Positions 40,436-53,107 of a stretch of 64,000 bases of DNA are shown here, piece after piece. A program made the position numbers and the translations under genes. The notes under the pieces were generated by a model. The model did not search any database and was not told the origin of the DNA. It saw nothing but the letters and a program-made list of their open reading frames with translations. Within the stretch, counting starts at the first letter, position 1. Every line of letters begins with the position of its first letter. This DNA is from Bernardetia sp. ABR2-2B. Its GTDB lineage: Bacteria > Bacteroidota > Bacteroidia > Cytophagales > Bernardetiaceae. The stretch covers positions 3,266,001 to 3,330,000 of the forward strand of contig NZ_CP147020.1 in the NCBI RefSeq assembly GCF_037126435.1, read 5' to 3'.

Positions 40436-43400
40436 TTATTCTATTTGTAATCCAAATATCAGAATATCATCAATCTGTTTTTCTTTGCCTTTCCAATTTT
40501 CAAACTGATTTTCTAAAAATTTTTCTTGCTGAATCATAGGTTTTGTACTTGCTTCTAGAAGCAAACTTCTTAGTCCTTTGAGCATTAACTTTCTTCCTTT
40601 TTTTCCTCCAAATTGGTCTTGAAAACCATCAGAGCACAAATAAAGTGTTGTAGCAATAAAGTCTTGGTTTTCATCATAAAAAGAAATTTTCTGAGTCACA
40701 AACTCTAGCTTTTTATGTTTTTGCTTTCCTCCTATACTCCGTTTATTTGGTTTCAATATTTGTAGTTCTTCTTTATTATTTTCTTGAATGAAGTATAAAG
40801 GATTCATAGCACCTGCATATTCTACATGTGAAAAGGAATCGCCTTGTCTGTGTAGAGTAATCACAACAGCATCCATTCCATCTACATTTTTAGAATCTTC
40901 TTGTTTCAAGGCTTCGAAAATACCATTGTGAAGCTCCTCTAAAATTTGAGCAGGACTTGTAATCTTATTTACCTTGACAATAGTATTTAATAATTGATTT
41001 CCTATCATTGACATAAATGCACCTGGAACTCCGTGTCCTGTACAGTCGGCAGCAACAATTATTATTTTATTATCTACTTCTTCAAAGAAATAAAAGTCAC
41101 CACTTACTACATCACGAGGTTTGTAAAAAACGAAAAAATCATTTTTGCCATGCTTTTTTAAACGACTTTCTATTCTGTCATGAAAAGGCAATATTGCCTC
41201 TTGGATTCGTTTTGCATATGTAATACTAGAGTTTATATTTCTACTTCGTTCTTGTAGTTCATTTTTTTGCTCGTTTACCATCTCTACAGTAATATTGAGT
41301 TCTTCATTAACTTGTCTCAAACTCTCAGACTGAATTATAATTTCTTCTTTTTGGCTTTCTAAAGCTGTATTTTTTTGTACAACTTCTGCAGTACGCTCTT
41401 TTACTATTGATTCTAGCCTTTTCTTGGAACGCTTCAAGCGCAACGTATAAACCCTGACAATTCCATAAACAAGCAAAATGGCTAAAGCTGTATAAATGAA
41501 ATAGGCTAGGGCTGTTTGGTAAAAAGGAGGTTGGATAGAAAATGAGAAAGTATCTATTTCACTAATTTGGTTAAGGAAATTTTTAGCTTGTACTTCAAAA
41601 GTATAATTTCCTTGATTCAAATTGGTATATTCCTTTTGTGTTTGATTTGTCCACCCTGACCATTTATTTTCATAGCCTTTTAATCTAAAACGATATAGCG
41701 TTTCTTTTTCAAGATAATAGTTGGGGGCTGCATAGCTGAAAACAAATGAATTATTCTCGTACTCAAAATTATTTTCACTTAAAAACTCATTTGCGTTTCC
41801 TTCTCCATAAAAAATAATACTATCAGAATTTGATAATTTTACTTCTCTGATATAAGTAGAAAATTCAGATTTTTTACCAAAGTTTAGTTGAGGTTGATAG
41901 ACTGAAAGTCCTTCGCTTGTTGATATCCAATAAATTGTTTTTTGATTGATTTTGTCTTCTAAAATGTGTTCTATATTGCCATCAATAGCCAAAAGTATAG
42001 TAGAGTCAGCTTTGTTTTTATCTCCATTTTGATAAATAATTTTATTCATCAAATCCCAATGATTGTTTTTAGAATCTATGAAAAGAGATTGGGATAAAAT
42101 AAAACTGCTCTTTGAGTAAGGCTCAAAAACCTGTTGTTCATAATTGAAAGTATATTCCTTTTGTGCAGAGCTAAAAATAATCTCTCCATTTTTTTCTGTC
42201 ATTCTACAACTCTCAACCTTGTCTAGTCCTTTTATTTGTAGAGTTACTTTTGCTTGCTCAATGTTTTTCTTTGAGAAATTTTTTATATCAATCTGATAAA
42301 ACCCTTTAGCTGGATTAGTTGTCCAAACAAAGCCGTTTTTATCTTCTATTATCTCTCTAGTAATAATTTCTTCCATTGCCTTTACTTCTGCCAAACGGAT
42401 AAATCTATCTTGACTTTTTTCATAACGCAGCATTTCAAAACCTTGATATTTTCCATTATAAAAAATAGAACTGTCCTTTTTTGAACGACTTATTGCCATT
42501 GTTGCCCAATCTCCACCTACATTTTGAATTACTTTTTTATCAGAAATATAGAAAAAACCACGATTTCCACCAGCTACTACGAATTTAGAATCTGTAACAG
42601 GTACAATTTCCCAACACTGCGTATGAGGAAAGTTTGTAACTATTTCAAAGCGATTATTTTTCTTATAAAACAAGCCATTATTAGCAGCAATATAAATTGT
42701 ACTATCTCCGTTTTTATACGTTTGATTGACACGAGTGGCAATATTATGATTAAAATCAAAAAACGTAAAAGGAAGCTCCAAAGAAATCTTTGCTAATCCT
42801 TTATAAGTAGCTGCCCAAAGCGCATTTTGATTATCTACATGAAAATTAGAAATATCATTTGAAATTAGACCTACTTTTTTATTGATATGCTGAACTACTT
42901 TCCCGTTTGTATCGATTATTAATGCTCCATCATCAAAAGAACCCAAAACATAATAGTAGTTTTTATTTTGGTCTTGAAAATAAGTAGCTGTATATAAATA
43001 ATTTTTGGCTATCCAATCATTAGCAGGTGTTTGAAATTGGCTTACACTATCCTTTGCTTCATCGTATAAAAATGCTCCTGTTTCTGCACCAAAAAAGAGC
43101 AGTTTGTCTTTCTTATAAGGAAAGAAACCTTTGATATTATCATCTGTAAAGTAGCTCGTATCTAATTTTTGCTTCCAATTTCCGTTTATTTTCTCAAATA
43201 ATCCTTTATCAGATTTCTGTAAAAAAAGACGATCTTCAAATTGAAATAAACTTAGTTTGTTTTCATTCTCCTGTTTTTCTATGACAAAACTACTATCAGC
43301 GAGGTTGAATTTGTAATAAATATCTTCGCTAGAAAAATAAACCTCCTTTTCAAAATAATAGACTTGTGTGATAAACGTCAAATCTTGATATTCCTTTGGT

Positions 43401-48352: not shown

Positions 48353-48401
48353 CAAAAAAAAACGAACCTCTACACTATTTCTGTAAAGGGTCGTTTTTTT
48401 T
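48353..48401 (-). terminator. Terminator of the 48422-50698 gene
   Basis: AAAAAAACGA/TCGTTTTTTT plus inner CCT/AGG and TACA/TGTA pairings make a long stem with a 7-nt loop, 20 bp after the stop on the minus strand, ended by a T-tract. Confidence 0.8.
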
Positions 48402-48421: not shown

Positions 48422-50698
48422 TTAAGAAATACGTACTCCGATTACTGCAATATCATCACGCTGAGCTTCTTCGCCTTTATGCTCATCAAATTTTTGCTTG
48501 ATAATCGTGCCTTGTTCTTTCATTGAGAGGGGTGCAATATCATGTATTAACTTTTTGAGATTATGAGAACCAAATTTCAAATCTTTGTCATTATTTTGGT
48601 CTGCATACCCATCGCTACATAAATAGAAACTATCTCCTTCTTCCAAAATAAGCTCATTTACTTCAAAAGCTTTTCTTTCTTTCTTCGAATATCCTCCTAT
48701 ACTTTGGCGTGTTCCTCTTATTTCTAAAAGTTCTTGTGTAGCTTTTTTGTAATGATACAAAGGGCGTTTTGCTCCAGAGAAAAGAATTTTACATCCTCCA
48801 TTTGGCAGATATTCTAGCACACACAAACCGACATCCATTCCATCATCGTTAGTGCTATTTTCCTGTTTCAAAGCTTTTTGAATAGTAAGATGAAGTTCTT
48901 CTAAAATCTCATCAGGTGCTTCTAGTTCATTTCTATCCACCAAAGCATCAAGAGCAGCAGAACCAATCATCGACATAAATGCCCCTGGTACACCATGTCC
49001 TGTACAGTCGGCTACGGCTAGATAAACTTTTCCCTTTAAATCTGTTAGCCAATAAAAATCTCCACTTACAATATCTTTCGGACGATAAAAAGTAAAGTAT
49101 TCCTTCAAGTGACTATCCATTCTTTCTTCAAAAGGCAGAATGGCATCTTGAATCGTTTGTGCATAACGCAAACTATCTGTAATGCTTCTGTTAGACTCTG
49201 CAATGATTTGATTCTGGGTTTTTACAGTTTCTACGGTAGAATAAAGCTCTTCATTTGTAGAGTTGAGTTCTTCGTTAGTAGCTTTTATTTCCTCATTTAT
49301 GGATTCTATCTCTGCCGAACGTTGCTCAATAGTATTATTTTGCTGCTGCACTGTTTCTAGCATAGCATTGAGTTCTTCATTTGTAGAGTTGAGTTCTTCG
49401 TTTGAAATACTTAGCTCTTCTGTTGCTTCTTTTACTTTTATTTCTAATACTTTATTCTGTTCTGTTACTAGTTTATCATGTGCCTTTGTTTTTTCTAAGG
49501 CTTCTTTTTGTGCTTCTTCTTTTTGTTTTTTATAGACGTTTATTCTATCTGCAAGTGCAAAAGATAATAATACTACTTCTATGGCAGAGCCAATTATAGT
49601 TGCATTTTGTGTAAGAGGAGTAGATGCAATCACTCCCAAGACTTGTAACATAAATATTATAATTCCTATAAGAAATACAAACCAAGCTAAAGCAAAGAAA
49701 CGTGCTATTTTTACACCTTTAAAATAGCTATAAAATGCAACAAACAATATATAGAAAGAAAGTAAAAGAGACAATATTTGAGATAATGGAGCTGCAATTA
49801 CATACAATCCTACAACATTTAAAACAATTGCTATTCCAAATATACCTATTAATACATGAGCTGTAATATGAGTTTTTCTAAAATTTTTCTTTGTGTTAAG
49901 AAAACTTGTAGCAAATAGCAGCATGAATATAGACCCTAGAGAAACCAAAGTAGGAATATAGTAATTGACAATAGGATAGTTTGACCAAATAAATTCAAAT
50001 GAGTAACCCTTAAAATTAGCATAAATAATAAGAGCGAGACTAATGTATAAAATATAATATAAGTATGTCTTGTCTCTTGTAGATAGGAATATAAAAAAGT
50101 TATACAAAATCATTACTATCAAGAAGCCAAAATATATACCATACAATACGTCATATAAATGGTTTGTTTCAGTAATTTTTTGATGAGTTGCTATTTTCAT
50201 AGGTAGCTCAATAGGATATTCACTATTAATCTTGAAATAAAATGTTTTAATTTGATTTTTACTTTCAAAAGAAATAGGAATTACAAAGTTATTGAGTTGT
50301 AAGGGACGAGAAGAAAAAATCTGTTTTGCACCTAATTGTAATTTATCATAATTGGTATCATGAGTAAGATAGAAAAAAGCTAAGCTGTCTAACAAAGGGT
50401 TCGCAATTTCAAATAATAACTCATTATCAGTAGAATTTTTTATAGTAAATCTTCCCCAGATAGTAGAAGTAGTATTTGCAAAGTTGGGAATATCTTGTTC
50501 TACTGCTTTGAACAGCGTATCTGATTGAGCAAGAATTTGCTCTAATGTATAAGATTGTTCTTTATCCTCAAAAAATGTAACTTTCCTTCCATCTAATTCT
50601 ATCACTTCTATCTCATCAGAAAAAGTAACTATATTCTGTGAATAAATAGAATAAGAAATAAAGTAAATTAATGCTGCTATTATGTGTCTTAGTTTCAT
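48422..50698 (-). CDS. 7TMR-DISM receptor with SpoIIE-type phosphatase output
   Basis: 758 residues. Signal peptide, then an extracytoplasmic 7TMR-DISMED2-like sensor (~25-175) ending before seven membrane helices (~180-385, from LYGIYFGFLIVMILYNFFIF). A long coiled coil (~388-505) contains near-repeats of EELNSTNEEL. The SpoIIE phosphatase (~515-758) shows KDIVSGDFYWL, VADCTGHGVPGAFMSMIG, DGMDVGLCVL, CSDGYADQNNDK and DDIAVIGVRI. 7TMR-DISM sensors usually detect small or carbohydrate-like ligands. The gene is 16 bp downstream of the FAD oxidoreductase gene and is probably co-transcribed with it and with the acyltransferase-like gene. Confidence 0.9.
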   Translation of the reverse strand: MKLRHIIAALIYFISYSIYSQNIVTFSDEIEVIELDGRKVTFFEDKEQSYTLEQILAQSDTLFKAVEQDIPNFANTTSTIWGRFTIKNSTDNELLFEIANPLLDSLAFFYLTHDTNYDKLQLGAKQIFSSRPLQLNNFVIPISFESKNQIKTFYFKINSEYPIELPMKIATHQKITETNHLYDVLYGIYFGFLIVMILYNFFIFLSTRDKTYLYYILYISLALIIYANFKGYSFEFIWSNYPIVNYYIPTLVSLGSIFMLLFATSFLNTKKNFRKTHITAHVLIGIFGIAIVLNVVGLYVIAAPLSQILSLLLSFYILFVAFYSYFKGVKIARFFALAWFVFLIGIIIFMLQVLGVIASTPLTQNATIIGSAIEVVLLSFALADRINVYKKQKEEAQKEALEKTKAHDKLVTEQNKVLEIKVKEATEELSISNEELNSTNEELNAMLETVQQQNNTIEQRSAEIESINEEIKATNEELNSTNEELYSTVETVKTQNQIIAESNRSITDSLRYAQTIQDAILPFEERMDSHLKEYFTFYRPKDIVSGDFYWLTDLKGKVYLAVADCTGHGVPGAFMSMIGSAALDALVDRNELEAPDEILEELHLTIQKALKQENSTNDDGMDVGLCVLEYLPNGGCKILFSGAKRPLYHYKKATQELLEIRGTRQSIGGYSKKERKAFEVNELILEEGDSFYLCSDGYADQNNDKDLKFGSHNLKKLIHDIAPLSMKEQGTIIKQKFDEHKGEEAQRDDIAVIGVRIS

Positions 50699-50714
50699 AT
50701 AAAAAAAACTGAAA

Positions 50715-52304
50715 TTATATAATATATCTTTTTTTGGATAAAATATTATTTGGGTCTATGCTGTTTTTTAGTTGTCGAAGAAAAGTAAGATTCTCTGAGT
50801 TCAACTTACTCATTAAATCCATAGATTGTATTCCTAATCTATAGGGAGCATAGCCCTGTGAAATAAATGCTTCCATAATTTCATCATGGCATTGCATGGC
50901 TCTTTCTTCTTCTTTTTCTTTTCCTTCTCTGTCATAACAGATTGCACCTGTTATGTCTATTGCTCTTTCTGAAACAAACAAAAATCCAATATTTGGTTCT
51001 AAATTGTATTTTTTGCTAATTTTTTCTACAATATTTATAGCTTTCTGGACATCTTGTTTTGTCTGAGGGATAATAGGACAGTACCATAACACACCACACA
51101 AATCTTTATGAACATTTGTTTTTTGTAAAGCCTCTTGAGGTTTCCTCCAATAACACATATTCAATGGTGCATCAGAAACGTATCCTTTAAGTACAGAAGT
51201 AGTATAAAAAAAATTTACTTTTGCTTTTTCTTCTTCTGTTTGAGCTAAACCTAAACTTTTATCATCGTAAAATACTAAATTTTTTGTTAGACTTCCAATA
51301 TATTTTTTAATTATTTCTCTATCAGCTTCAGCATGTTCCTTACTTATTGAATAAACCCCTCCAAAACCTATCCATTTATTTTCAACACCAAAGGATTCTC
51401 TAAACTCTTTTCTTTTATGTTCTGACCATTCTAAATCAGTTGGCTTTTGCTTATTAAAGGCTATTAATCTTGTATCATTAAATATTCTTAAAGAAGCTTG
51501 TAATCCTTTTAAGCGTAAATCTCTCCAAAGCTCTGATACAATTCCACAAACGTCATCAGAATCTATTTCAAAATAAAAAGTTTGAAAAAAATCAAGTTTA
51601 GGCTTGAGCCAAAAAGTAAGTTTTGTAATGATTCCTAAATTAGACTGAGTAAACAAACCATCAAGACTTGCTCCTATCCCTCCTTTTGCTAAAGGAGCTA
51701 TTTTATTATTCTCTTGGTAAGCATTATATCCTGTCTTGATAATTTTTCCAGTTGGCAACATTACTTCAAAGCCACAAACATGACTAAACCTGTCAGCATA
51801 CATTCCCATACCATGTCCTCTTTCTGCTGCATTTCCGACAACAGTTGCTTGTGGTGATGAACCAATACTATCCATCATAAGGCTACTATAATTTTCTTCC
51901 AAATGATTGAACACTTGTTCGAAAGTAACTCCAGCTTCAATAGTTATATAAGCCATTTTTTCACTAAAATCAACAATTCTATTCATCCTTGATAAATCTA
52001 TCAATGCACTATTTTCTTTTGGAGGTAGTGATGAACCTAGTCCAATATTGTATCCTCCACTTACTACATGAACTGGTATTTTAAATTTGTTCGCATACTT
52101 AAGACATTTTGATAGCTGTGAGATAGAAGTAGGGAATAACATTACCTTTACTTTAGTTTTAAAGTCAAAAGTAGCTGTTCTTAATGGAGTACTAGCACTT
52201 TTTCTTCTGACATTTTTTTTTCCTAATTTTTCTTCACACTTTTTTATAAATTTTAGCATTTTGGATATTTTTTGATTAAAACAAAAACCTTTCACAAAAT
52301 ACAT
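50715..52304 (-). CDS. FAD-binding oxidoreductase of the VAO/PCMH family
   Basis: 529 residues. The N-terminal FAD-binding PCMH domain (~50-230) shows FPTSISQLSKCLKYANKFKI, HVVSGGYNIGLGSSLPP, YITIEAGVTFEQVF and GNAAERGHGMGMYADRFSHV. The C-terminal substrate domain (~260-520) resembles the 4-cresol dehydrogenase/vanillyl-alcohol oxidase type. I see no obvious His or Cys for covalent FAD in my reading. It sits between a GNAT-like acyltransferase gene (38 bp upstream) and a 7TMR-SpoIIE gene (16 bp downstream). The substrate is unknown; an oxidised small molecule, possibly a signal, is inferred only from context. Confidence 0.85.
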   Translation of the reverse strand: MYFVKGFCFNQKISKMLKFIKKCEEKLGKKNVRRKSASTPLRTATFDFKTKVKVMLFPTSISQLSKCLKYANKFKIPVHVVSGGYNIGLGSSLPPKENSALIDLSRMNRIVDFSEKMAYITIEAGVTFEQVFNHLEENYSSLMMDSIGSSPQATVVGNAAERGHGMGMYADRFSHVCGFEVMLPTGKIIKTGYNAYQENNKIAPLAKGGIGASLDGLFTQSNLGIITKLTFWLKPKLDFFQTFYFEIDSDDVCGIVSELWRDLRLKGLQASLRIFNDTRLIAFNKQKPTDLEWSEHKRKEFRESFGVENKWIGFGGVYSISKEHAEADREIIKKYIGSLTKNLVFYDDKSLGLAQTEEEKAKVNFFYTTSVLKGYVSDAPLNMCYWRKPQEALQKTNVHKDLCGVLWYCPIIPQTKQDVQKAINIVEKISKKYNLEPNIGFLFVSERAIDITGAICYDREGKEKEEERAMQCHDEIMEAFISQGYAPYRLGIQSMDLMSKLNSENLTFLRQLKNSIDPNNILSKKRYII

Positions 52305-52342
52305 TATGAAAGGCTAAATTTAAAAGATAAACTATAAAAAAA

Positions 52343-53107
52343 TCACATAATTCTCAAATCATACTCAAAGTTGGTTATTCTTCCTCTAAACTCTTCATTT
52401 TTTATTTTTTCGCAAGGATGAGTACGCAACCAACACATCAATGCTTTTTCTTCTTCTTTAGCACTCATCAAACTATCTACATAAACTTCAATTAAAGTAG
52501 TTTGGTAGCGTTCGTCTGGATACGCAATTTGTCCGTTATTCAAAACATTTGATACAGGTGTAAATCCCATTTCAGTAGCCATCTTCAATGTGTACTGATT
52601 AACGAACCCTAATATAACCTGTATTCTTAACTTTGGAGCTATTGCAATAGCACAACGAGTTAAAATTCTAGCTAGATTTCTTTCACTAAACTTTTTACTT
52701 ACCCACAAACCACAAGATTCAGCTAACATATGATCGTACATGTGAACTCGGGCTATAATACTTTGGTCAGTGTGAGAAAAAGCTCCCTCCAATGGTATAT
52801 GATGTCTGTTATCAACTACATCTAAACGCATTCCTGCGCCTATCTCTCCAGTATCAACATCCTCTATAATTATCATATAAGAATACTGGTTTTTCCACCA
52901 TTCATTCTTTATAGAAGATACACCACCTACTTCAAATTCTTCTAATACTTTTTTCTGTCCTTCATAAAATTTTTGAGCTATCTCTGGATAATCTGCGACA
53001 TGTAACACACGAATACGCAAATTCATCTTTTGAGGAATGATAGAAGTTGGCATTTTAATTTCGTTTTCTGTAATTGTTTTTGGGAAAGCTAGAGTAGCAG
53101 TTGCCAT
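52343..53107 (-). CDS. GNAT-fold protein resembling N-acyl amino acid synthase (FeeM-like)
   Basis: 254 residues. From ~29 on, the chain has the layout of LasI/FeeM-type acyltransferases: LRIRVLHVADYPEIAQKFYE, YMIIIEDVDTGEIGAGMRLD, then ESCGLWVSKKFSERNLARIL and a QYTLKMATEMGFTP element. This group makes N-acyl products or related metabolites. The assignment is by layout, and an ordinary acetyltransferase is possible. It is the first gene of the run 53107 to 48422 and has a candidate promoter 78 bp before its start. Confidence 0.6.
   Translation of the reverse strand: MATATLAFPKTITENEIKMPTSIIPQKMNLRIRVLHVADYPEIAQKFYEGQKKVLEEFEVGGVSSIKNEWWKNQYSYMIIIEDVDTGEIGAGMRLDVVDNRHHIPLEGAFSHTDQSIIARVHMYDHMLAESCGLWVSKKFSERNLARILTRCAIAIAPKLRIQVILGFVNQYTLKMATEMGFTPVSNVLNNGQIAYPDERYQTTLIEVYVDSLMSAKEEEKALMCWLRTHPCEKIKNEEFRGRITNFEYDLRIM

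Follow-up and report, generated by a model that had tools for sequence, protein, structure and literature searches.

In a 64,000-nucleotide stretch of the chromosome of Bernardetia sp. ABR2-2B (contig NZ_CP147020.1, positions 3,266,001 to 3,330,000; hereafter the window), three consecutive genes on the minus strand encode a predicted signal or lipid synthase, an acyltransferase of the N-acyl homoserine lactone (AHL)-synthase/FeeM/TrzA type (254 residues; 52343-53107), a predicted tailoring enzyme, an oxidoreductase dependent on flavin adenine dinucleotide (FAD) and of the vanillyl-alcohol oxidase/p-cresol methylhydroxylase (VAO/PCMH) type (529 residues as called; 50715-52304), and a 7TMR-DISM receptor with a SpoIIE PP2C-type phosphatase output (758 residues; 48422-50698). 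On balance, we lean towards reading these genes as a synthesis-and-sensing module, the product of which would be a signal that is made and then self-sensed. The gene content, the folds, the homologies, the linkage, and the swapping of tailoring enzymes and outputs among relatives form the basis of this reading. A first-pass annotation, made from the sequence alone, had already proposed that two enzymes make a diffusible molecule detected by the receptor. The pairing of the acyltransferase with a 7TMR-DISM receptor holds phylum-wide, whereas the version completed by a VAO-type enzyme and a SpoIIE output was seen in the window's family only.

Relatives of the acyltransferase, collected by six-frame genome searches (a degenerate-pattern contig search had yielded one locus), occur in 55 of the 295 genomes of the class, the window's own included. 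Of the distant Bacteroidota loci, 53 were examined in full and 52 are informative. A 7TMR-DISM receptor gene lies downstream on the same strand in 51 of these 52 loci; the two genes are at most 50 bp apart or overlap in 42 cases, often by 4 bp, while in the remaining nine a tailoring gene stands between them. The order is conserved across about 20 family-level groups, and all three held-out loci returned by a later profile search of the phylum show the same pairing. The DISMED2 and 7TM domains are present in all 53 receptors aligned. The output domain is a histidine kinase in 48 of 48 full-length distant receptors and SpoIIE in five of five from the window's family, and response regulators are common neighbours of the distant loci. 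A maker and its sensor would be expected to stay paired phylum-wide in this way. Full-text searches for the combination in open-licence PubMed Central papers returned only the papers on oxazolones and stieleriacines, and no account of a 7TMR-DISM receptor linked to such a synthase.

The 254-residue acyltransferase does not match any Pfam family. Its AlphaFold2 model, built from an alignment of 57 relatives (pLDDT 89.9), reports best Foldseek hits in the PDB with MesI (E 2.8e-9), FeeM (2g0b, 3.9e-8), RpaI (4.2e-8), BjaI (1.7e-7), and LasI (2.3e-7), EsaI and TofI being also among the best matches; the TM-score with FeeM, by target length, is 0.72-0.82. Structure prediction and Foldseek thus agree with the LasI/FeeM-like layout that the first-pass annotation had noticed in this GNAT protein and, with AHL synthases and FeeM as the closest solved folds, the protein does not appear to be the plain acetyltransferase that the annotation had named as an alternative. 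General GNAT structures follow with similar E-values (about 1e-6), so the fold alone does not fix the substrate. At the profile level, hhalign matches the family end to end, over 182 columns (E 2.6e-5), with a Rhodococcus protein encoded beside an Rv1355c-family (TrzS) gene, which is TrzA-like by position and is itself uncharacterised. The Autoind_synth Pfam signature is found neither in the window acyltransferase nor in any of the 57 relatives, and the Pfam FeeM model does not match the window protein and returns a weak match (E 0.006) in one relative of the 57, seven of which exhibit a weak generic Acetyltransf_1 match. A search of plasmid records returns no acyltransferase relative at E 0.01, nor does the acyltransferase profile match the hypothetical proteins encoded next to two further ThiF genes on plasmids. 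On plasmid pLP1 of Rhodococcus qingshengii, a "hypothetical" gene that is TrzA-like by profile (L121:2785-3543, minus strand) lies beside an Rv1355c-family gene, with a GGDEF gene also adjacent; the Mycobacterium tuberculosis trz locus likewise has neighbours with a predicted role in the turnover of cyclic di-GMP (PMC12856293).

The third gene of the loci, by contrast with the constant receptor class, is exchangeable. Among the 52 informative distant loci, it encodes a ThiF-flavin oxidase fusion in 28, and ThiF alone or a ThiF gene cut by the contig end in 18, ThiF being present in 46 altogether. It is an S-adenosylmethionine methyltransferase in four others and an ICMT-like methyltransferase in one, the latter type recurring in one held-out locus, and a single informative locus is devoid of any tailoring gene. 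The ThiF-flavin oxidase of one of these loci (L060) scores 736 bits against the NF005901 model of the Rv1355c family, for a cut-off of 476. In the window's family, the third gene encodes the VAO-type enzyme; the ThiF cyclase and flavin oxidase are absent from the window, and no TrzS match is returned from the window's own genome. On the acyltransferase tree, the tailoring types require at least 12 changes, the methyltransferases standing in two separate places. From the known reactions, we infer that ThiF cyclisation and methylation would each leave an N-acyl amino acid with its carboxylate masked. If the receptor reads a product of varying decoration, as with a diversifying signal, one would expect the tailoring gene to change while the receptor class stays constant. 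Seen in this light, the window carries one version of a widespread module, in which VAO replaces ThiF and SpoIIE replaces the kinase.

The FAD protein contains a FAD_binding_4 domain (Pfam E 1.6e-28), and its profile matches the p-cresol methylhydroxylase chain 1dii over nearly the full length (E 1.8e-70), which bears out the PCMH-type FAD domain of the first-pass annotation. In PCMH, the 4-hydroxyphenyl-binding residues are Tyr95, Tyr473, and Arg474, and Tyr384 forms the covalent link to FAD. The Tyr473-Arg474 pair is kept as Tyr488-Arg489 in the window protein, Tyr95 is replaced by Leu89, and the FAD-linking Tyr384 aligns with Cys384 in the window protein and in its family relatives. Because Tyr95 and Tyr384 are replaced, the substrate may not be a phenol. 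Judged by these alignments, the FAD protein is a divergent member of the VAO/PCMH family, the substrate of which possibly carries a para-hydroxyphenyl group. Its orthologue follows the acyltransferase exactly, being found in the five family genomes that possess the latter and in none of the other six. The closest plasmid-borne relative (32.5% identity) is located between transposase genes on a plasmid of Candidatus Megaera polyxenophila, a member of the Rickettsiales (L123:5986-7596, plus strand).

The trio is conserved in all five family genomes bearing the acyltransferase, with the order and direction kept in G001, G005, and G007, and in G006 across a contig break. In G007 (L049), it stands amid different flanking genes, which identifies the trio itself as the unit. 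All related genomes with the trio, L049 among them, keep its order, which places the linkage of the three genes far above chance. Homologues not clustered elsewhere would have spoken against the earlier proposal; instead, the trio order is kept in relatives and the acyltransferase-receptor pairing recurs across the phylum. The syntenic site of G004 has neither the acyltransferase gene nor the FAD gene, and of the receptor only a broken remnant without its N-terminus is left (L205:7849-9413), a state consistent with loss of the whole module together. The same genome contains a more distant intact receptor copy (60%), alone elsewhere (L204). In G006, contig C155 exhibits three tandem acyltransferase domains in one open frame that reaches the contig end (L050:16592-18441, plus strand), and contig C110 (L051) carries the remaining module genes; a single acyltransferase copy is present in each of the other family genomes with the gene.

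The receptor comprises, from its N-terminus, a 7TMR-DISMED2 extracytoplasmic sensor domain (residues 38-170; 50189-50587, minus strand), a 7TMR-DISM_7TM membrane domain (residues 184-385; 49544-50149, minus strand), and a SpoIIE phosphatase domain (residues 556-757; 48428-49033, minus strand). The Pfam domains together with intact metal-site aspartate motifs (GDFYW at 546, ADCTGHG at 563, SDGYADQ at 695, and QRDDIAV at 746) confirm the 7TMR-DISM sensor with a complete SpoIIE domain that had been annotated. Its score against the SiaA equivalog model, 204 bits, does not reach the cut-off of 700. The window's own genome encodes 75 SpoIIE stretches and 23 7TMR-DISM proteins, and this abundance makes the receptor alone unremarkable. 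Against the 75 SpoIIE stretches, only seven SiaC-family and four STAS matches are found in this genome, which makes many SpoIIE phosphatases per identifiable target, and no such gene lies in the three-gene cluster. From these matches, the SpoIIE output could act on one of the seven SiaC-family or four STAS proteins. A second SpoIIE domain is encoded in the window at 40445-41074 on the minus strand, in a frame of 1124 residues, and a SpoIIE gene lies beside a SiaC-family gene just past the window end (genome positions 3333483-3335149).

Regarding the origin of the window receptor, direct orthology with the linked kinase receptors, followed by a swap of the output domain, is unsupported, as the protein groups with paralogues from its own genome (95/84) in a tree built on the sensor-plus-7TM region, a tree with moderate support and some long branches. 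An approximately unbiased test weakly rejects a single clade of window-family and linked kinase receptors (p 0.036). The tree suggests that the window-family receptor was recruited within its own lineage, separately from the kinase receptors. If so, acyltransferases of this type have come to be paired with 7TMR-DISM receptors on more than one occasion, a convergence that would strengthen the functional link between them.

The three open reading frames read in one direction, at the coordinates first annotated. The annotated gaps of 38 and 16 bp hold for the frames as called, but the first is probably wider. In homologues of the FAD protein, the first residue corresponds to residue 16 of the called frame (MLKFI), so the true start is probably at 52259, giving a protein of 514 residues, the 529-residue call being 15 codons too early; the gap between the acyltransferase and FAD genes would then be ~83 bp. 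Within it, a 12-pair hairpin is followed by T residues (52286-52315, minus strand), a terminator-like element and possible attenuator that is found at the same place in all five genomes of the family. Each of the five sequences folds more stably than all of its 200 shuffles (z -4.2 to -5.6), and RNAalifold reports no covariation on these five sequences, the stems of which were misaligned. One possibility is that partial termination at this hairpin yields more synthase than FAD enzyme and receptor. A second terminator-like hairpin, directly 3' of the receptor gene (48367-48389, minus strand), probably marks the end of the gene unit. The Bacteroidota promoter pattern occurs at chance-level frequency in the 64-kb window and not at the three-gene unit, in which neither an exporter nor a DNA-binding regulator is regularly present.

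In the working that we propose, the substrate, product, release, ligand binding, and phosphatase target are what we infer. The acyltransferase would N-acylate an amino acid that is probably aromatic, and the VAO-type flavoenzyme would oxidise the resulting N-acyl amino acid, at the step where relatives rely on cyclisation/desaturation (by ThiF, alone or together with flavin oxidase) or on methylation. The oxidised product would leave the cell by diffusion and be detected by the DISMED2/7TM part of the adjoining receptor, whose SpoIIE domain would dephosphorylate a SiaC- or STAS-type partner encoded elsewhere in the genome.

A synthase paired with a receptor is a known kind of arrangement. In the CqsA/CqsS and LqsA/LqsS systems, the synthase is encoded beside a multi-pass membrane histidine kinase, as in the distant relatives of the window; however, that synthase is a pyridoxal phosphate enzyme unrelated to the acyltransferase, the receptor is unrelated too, and the output in the window is a SpoIIE phosphatase. 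The LuxI/LasI/BjaI-LuxR quorum-sensing systems share the acyltransferase fold and a synthase gene adjoining a presumed receptor gene, and differ in that the window protein lacks an Autoind_synth match, the receptor is a membrane 7TMR-DISM protein instead of a cytoplasmic LuxR, and a tailoring enzyme is added. SiaA of Pseudomonas, a SpoIIE protein acting on SiaC, likewise combines a membrane sensor with a SpoIIE output, and the window genome has SiaC-family genes of its own, but the sensor region differs and the window cluster is devoid of a SiaC gene. The nearest known systems on the enzyme side are TrzAS, TyzACB, and OxzAB of Mycobacterium, Rhodococcus, and Pseudoalteromonas, in which an acyltransferase of the FeeM/BjaI fold is encoded beside a ThiF cyclase and a flavin oxidase. 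N-acyl tryptazolones are the products of TrzA and TrzS in M. tuberculosis and its relatives (PMC12856293), and N-acyl tyrazolones those of TyzACB (PMC10404671). Distant Bacteroidota members encode a TrzS homologue that exceeds the NF005901 cut-off and an acyltransferase whose family profile matches the TrzA-like protein. In contrast to those systems, for which the open-licence papers searched name no receptor, the Bacteroidota loci have a constant 7TMR-DISM neighbour, and in the window a VAO-type enzyme stands where ThiF and the flavin oxidase would be. The FeeM/stieleriacine-type clusters resemble the window in the acyltransferase fold and in the oxidative tailoring of an N-acyl amino acid. 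Their oxidation is by a nitroreductase-type flavin oxidase and not by a VAO-type enzyme, the window protein misses the Pfam FeeM model, to which one of its 57 relatives shows the weak match, and the same papers yielded no receptor for these clusters.

Several observations weigh against a synthesis-and-sensing module. Searches of PDB sequences with the acyltransferase, as a single sequence or as a profile, gave nothing useful, so that its likeness to solved AHL synthases is detectable by structure comparison only. The FAD protein is without the PCMH residues Tyr95 and Tyr384, receptor relatives from the same family also stand alone without enzymes (L204 and L206), one distant locus (L066) has the acyltransferase and ThiF without a receptor, and the conserved terminator-like hairpin splits the acyltransferase gene from the two others. 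Moreover, DISMED2 was originally predicted as carbohydrate-binding (cited in PMC6107284), and the receptor may sense something else. In the main rival, a less probable one, the cue would be different (a glycan, envelope stress, or an ion), and the receptor would control the output of an acyl lipid or natural product acting as a protective lipid, antibiotic, or surfactant and not as a signal. Some 7TMR-DISM proteins answer non-acyl cues (PMC6107284), most of the 23 in this genome presumably do not sense the module product, N-acyl tyrosines, stieleriacines among them, change the make-up of biofilms (PMC12479983, PMC7293339), and the role of the mycobacterial oxazolones is unresolved and linked to stress (PMC12856293). 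However, such a rival does not lead one to expect a single receptor class across about 20 families despite changing tailoring, nor the exchanged output in the window's family, and no exporter or DNA-binding regulator is a regular part of the unit.

That the 254-residue protein is an ordinary GNAT acetylating a metabolite, peptide, or protein, in a cluster serving local metabolism, is improbable. Many general GNAT structures match its model and Acetyltransf_1 is weakly found in seven of 57 relatives, but AHL synthases and FeeM come on top, with a TM-score of up to 0.82 for FeeM by target length, and the usual partner of the relatives is a TrzS-type oxazolone synthase. The least probable account by far is that the three genes adjoin one another through chance or common ancestry of the region, with no joint function. 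The very common SpoIIE and 7TMR copies of this genome would favour it; against it stand the order kept across about 20 family-level groups, the frequent 4-bp overlaps, the agreement of the held-out loci, the VAO orthologue present exactly where the acyltransferase is, and the joint loss in G004, and for the acyltransferase-receptor pair, conservation already contradicts it.

Extended from the window to its distant relatives, the synthesis-and-sensing reading becomes a proposition that we regard as evenly poised, namely an undescribed, phylum-wide form of communication in Bacteroidota, in which TrzA/FeeM-type synthases would make N-acyl amino acid derivatives that dedicated 7TMR-DISM receptors read. 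Depending on the exchangeable tailoring enzyme, these derivatives would be oxazolones, methyl esters, or VAO-oxidised forms, and the receptors would respond through a kinase or SpoIIE output. As of December 2025, the physiological role of N-acyl oxazolones was described as a major unresolved question, signalling being proposed and no receptor named (PMC12856293). AHL production has been reported in Tenacibaculum maritimum, a member of the Bacteroidota whose genome yielded no AHL-synthase homologue (PMC5561996). The constant receptor neighbour of the Bacteroidota acyltransferase family makes both questions directly testable. If the phylum-wide proposition is true, it would also give the orphan oxazolones their first receptor and, if it is confirmed, 7TMR-DISM proteins and their ligands would represent a new receptor class and a new signal class for bacterial communication.

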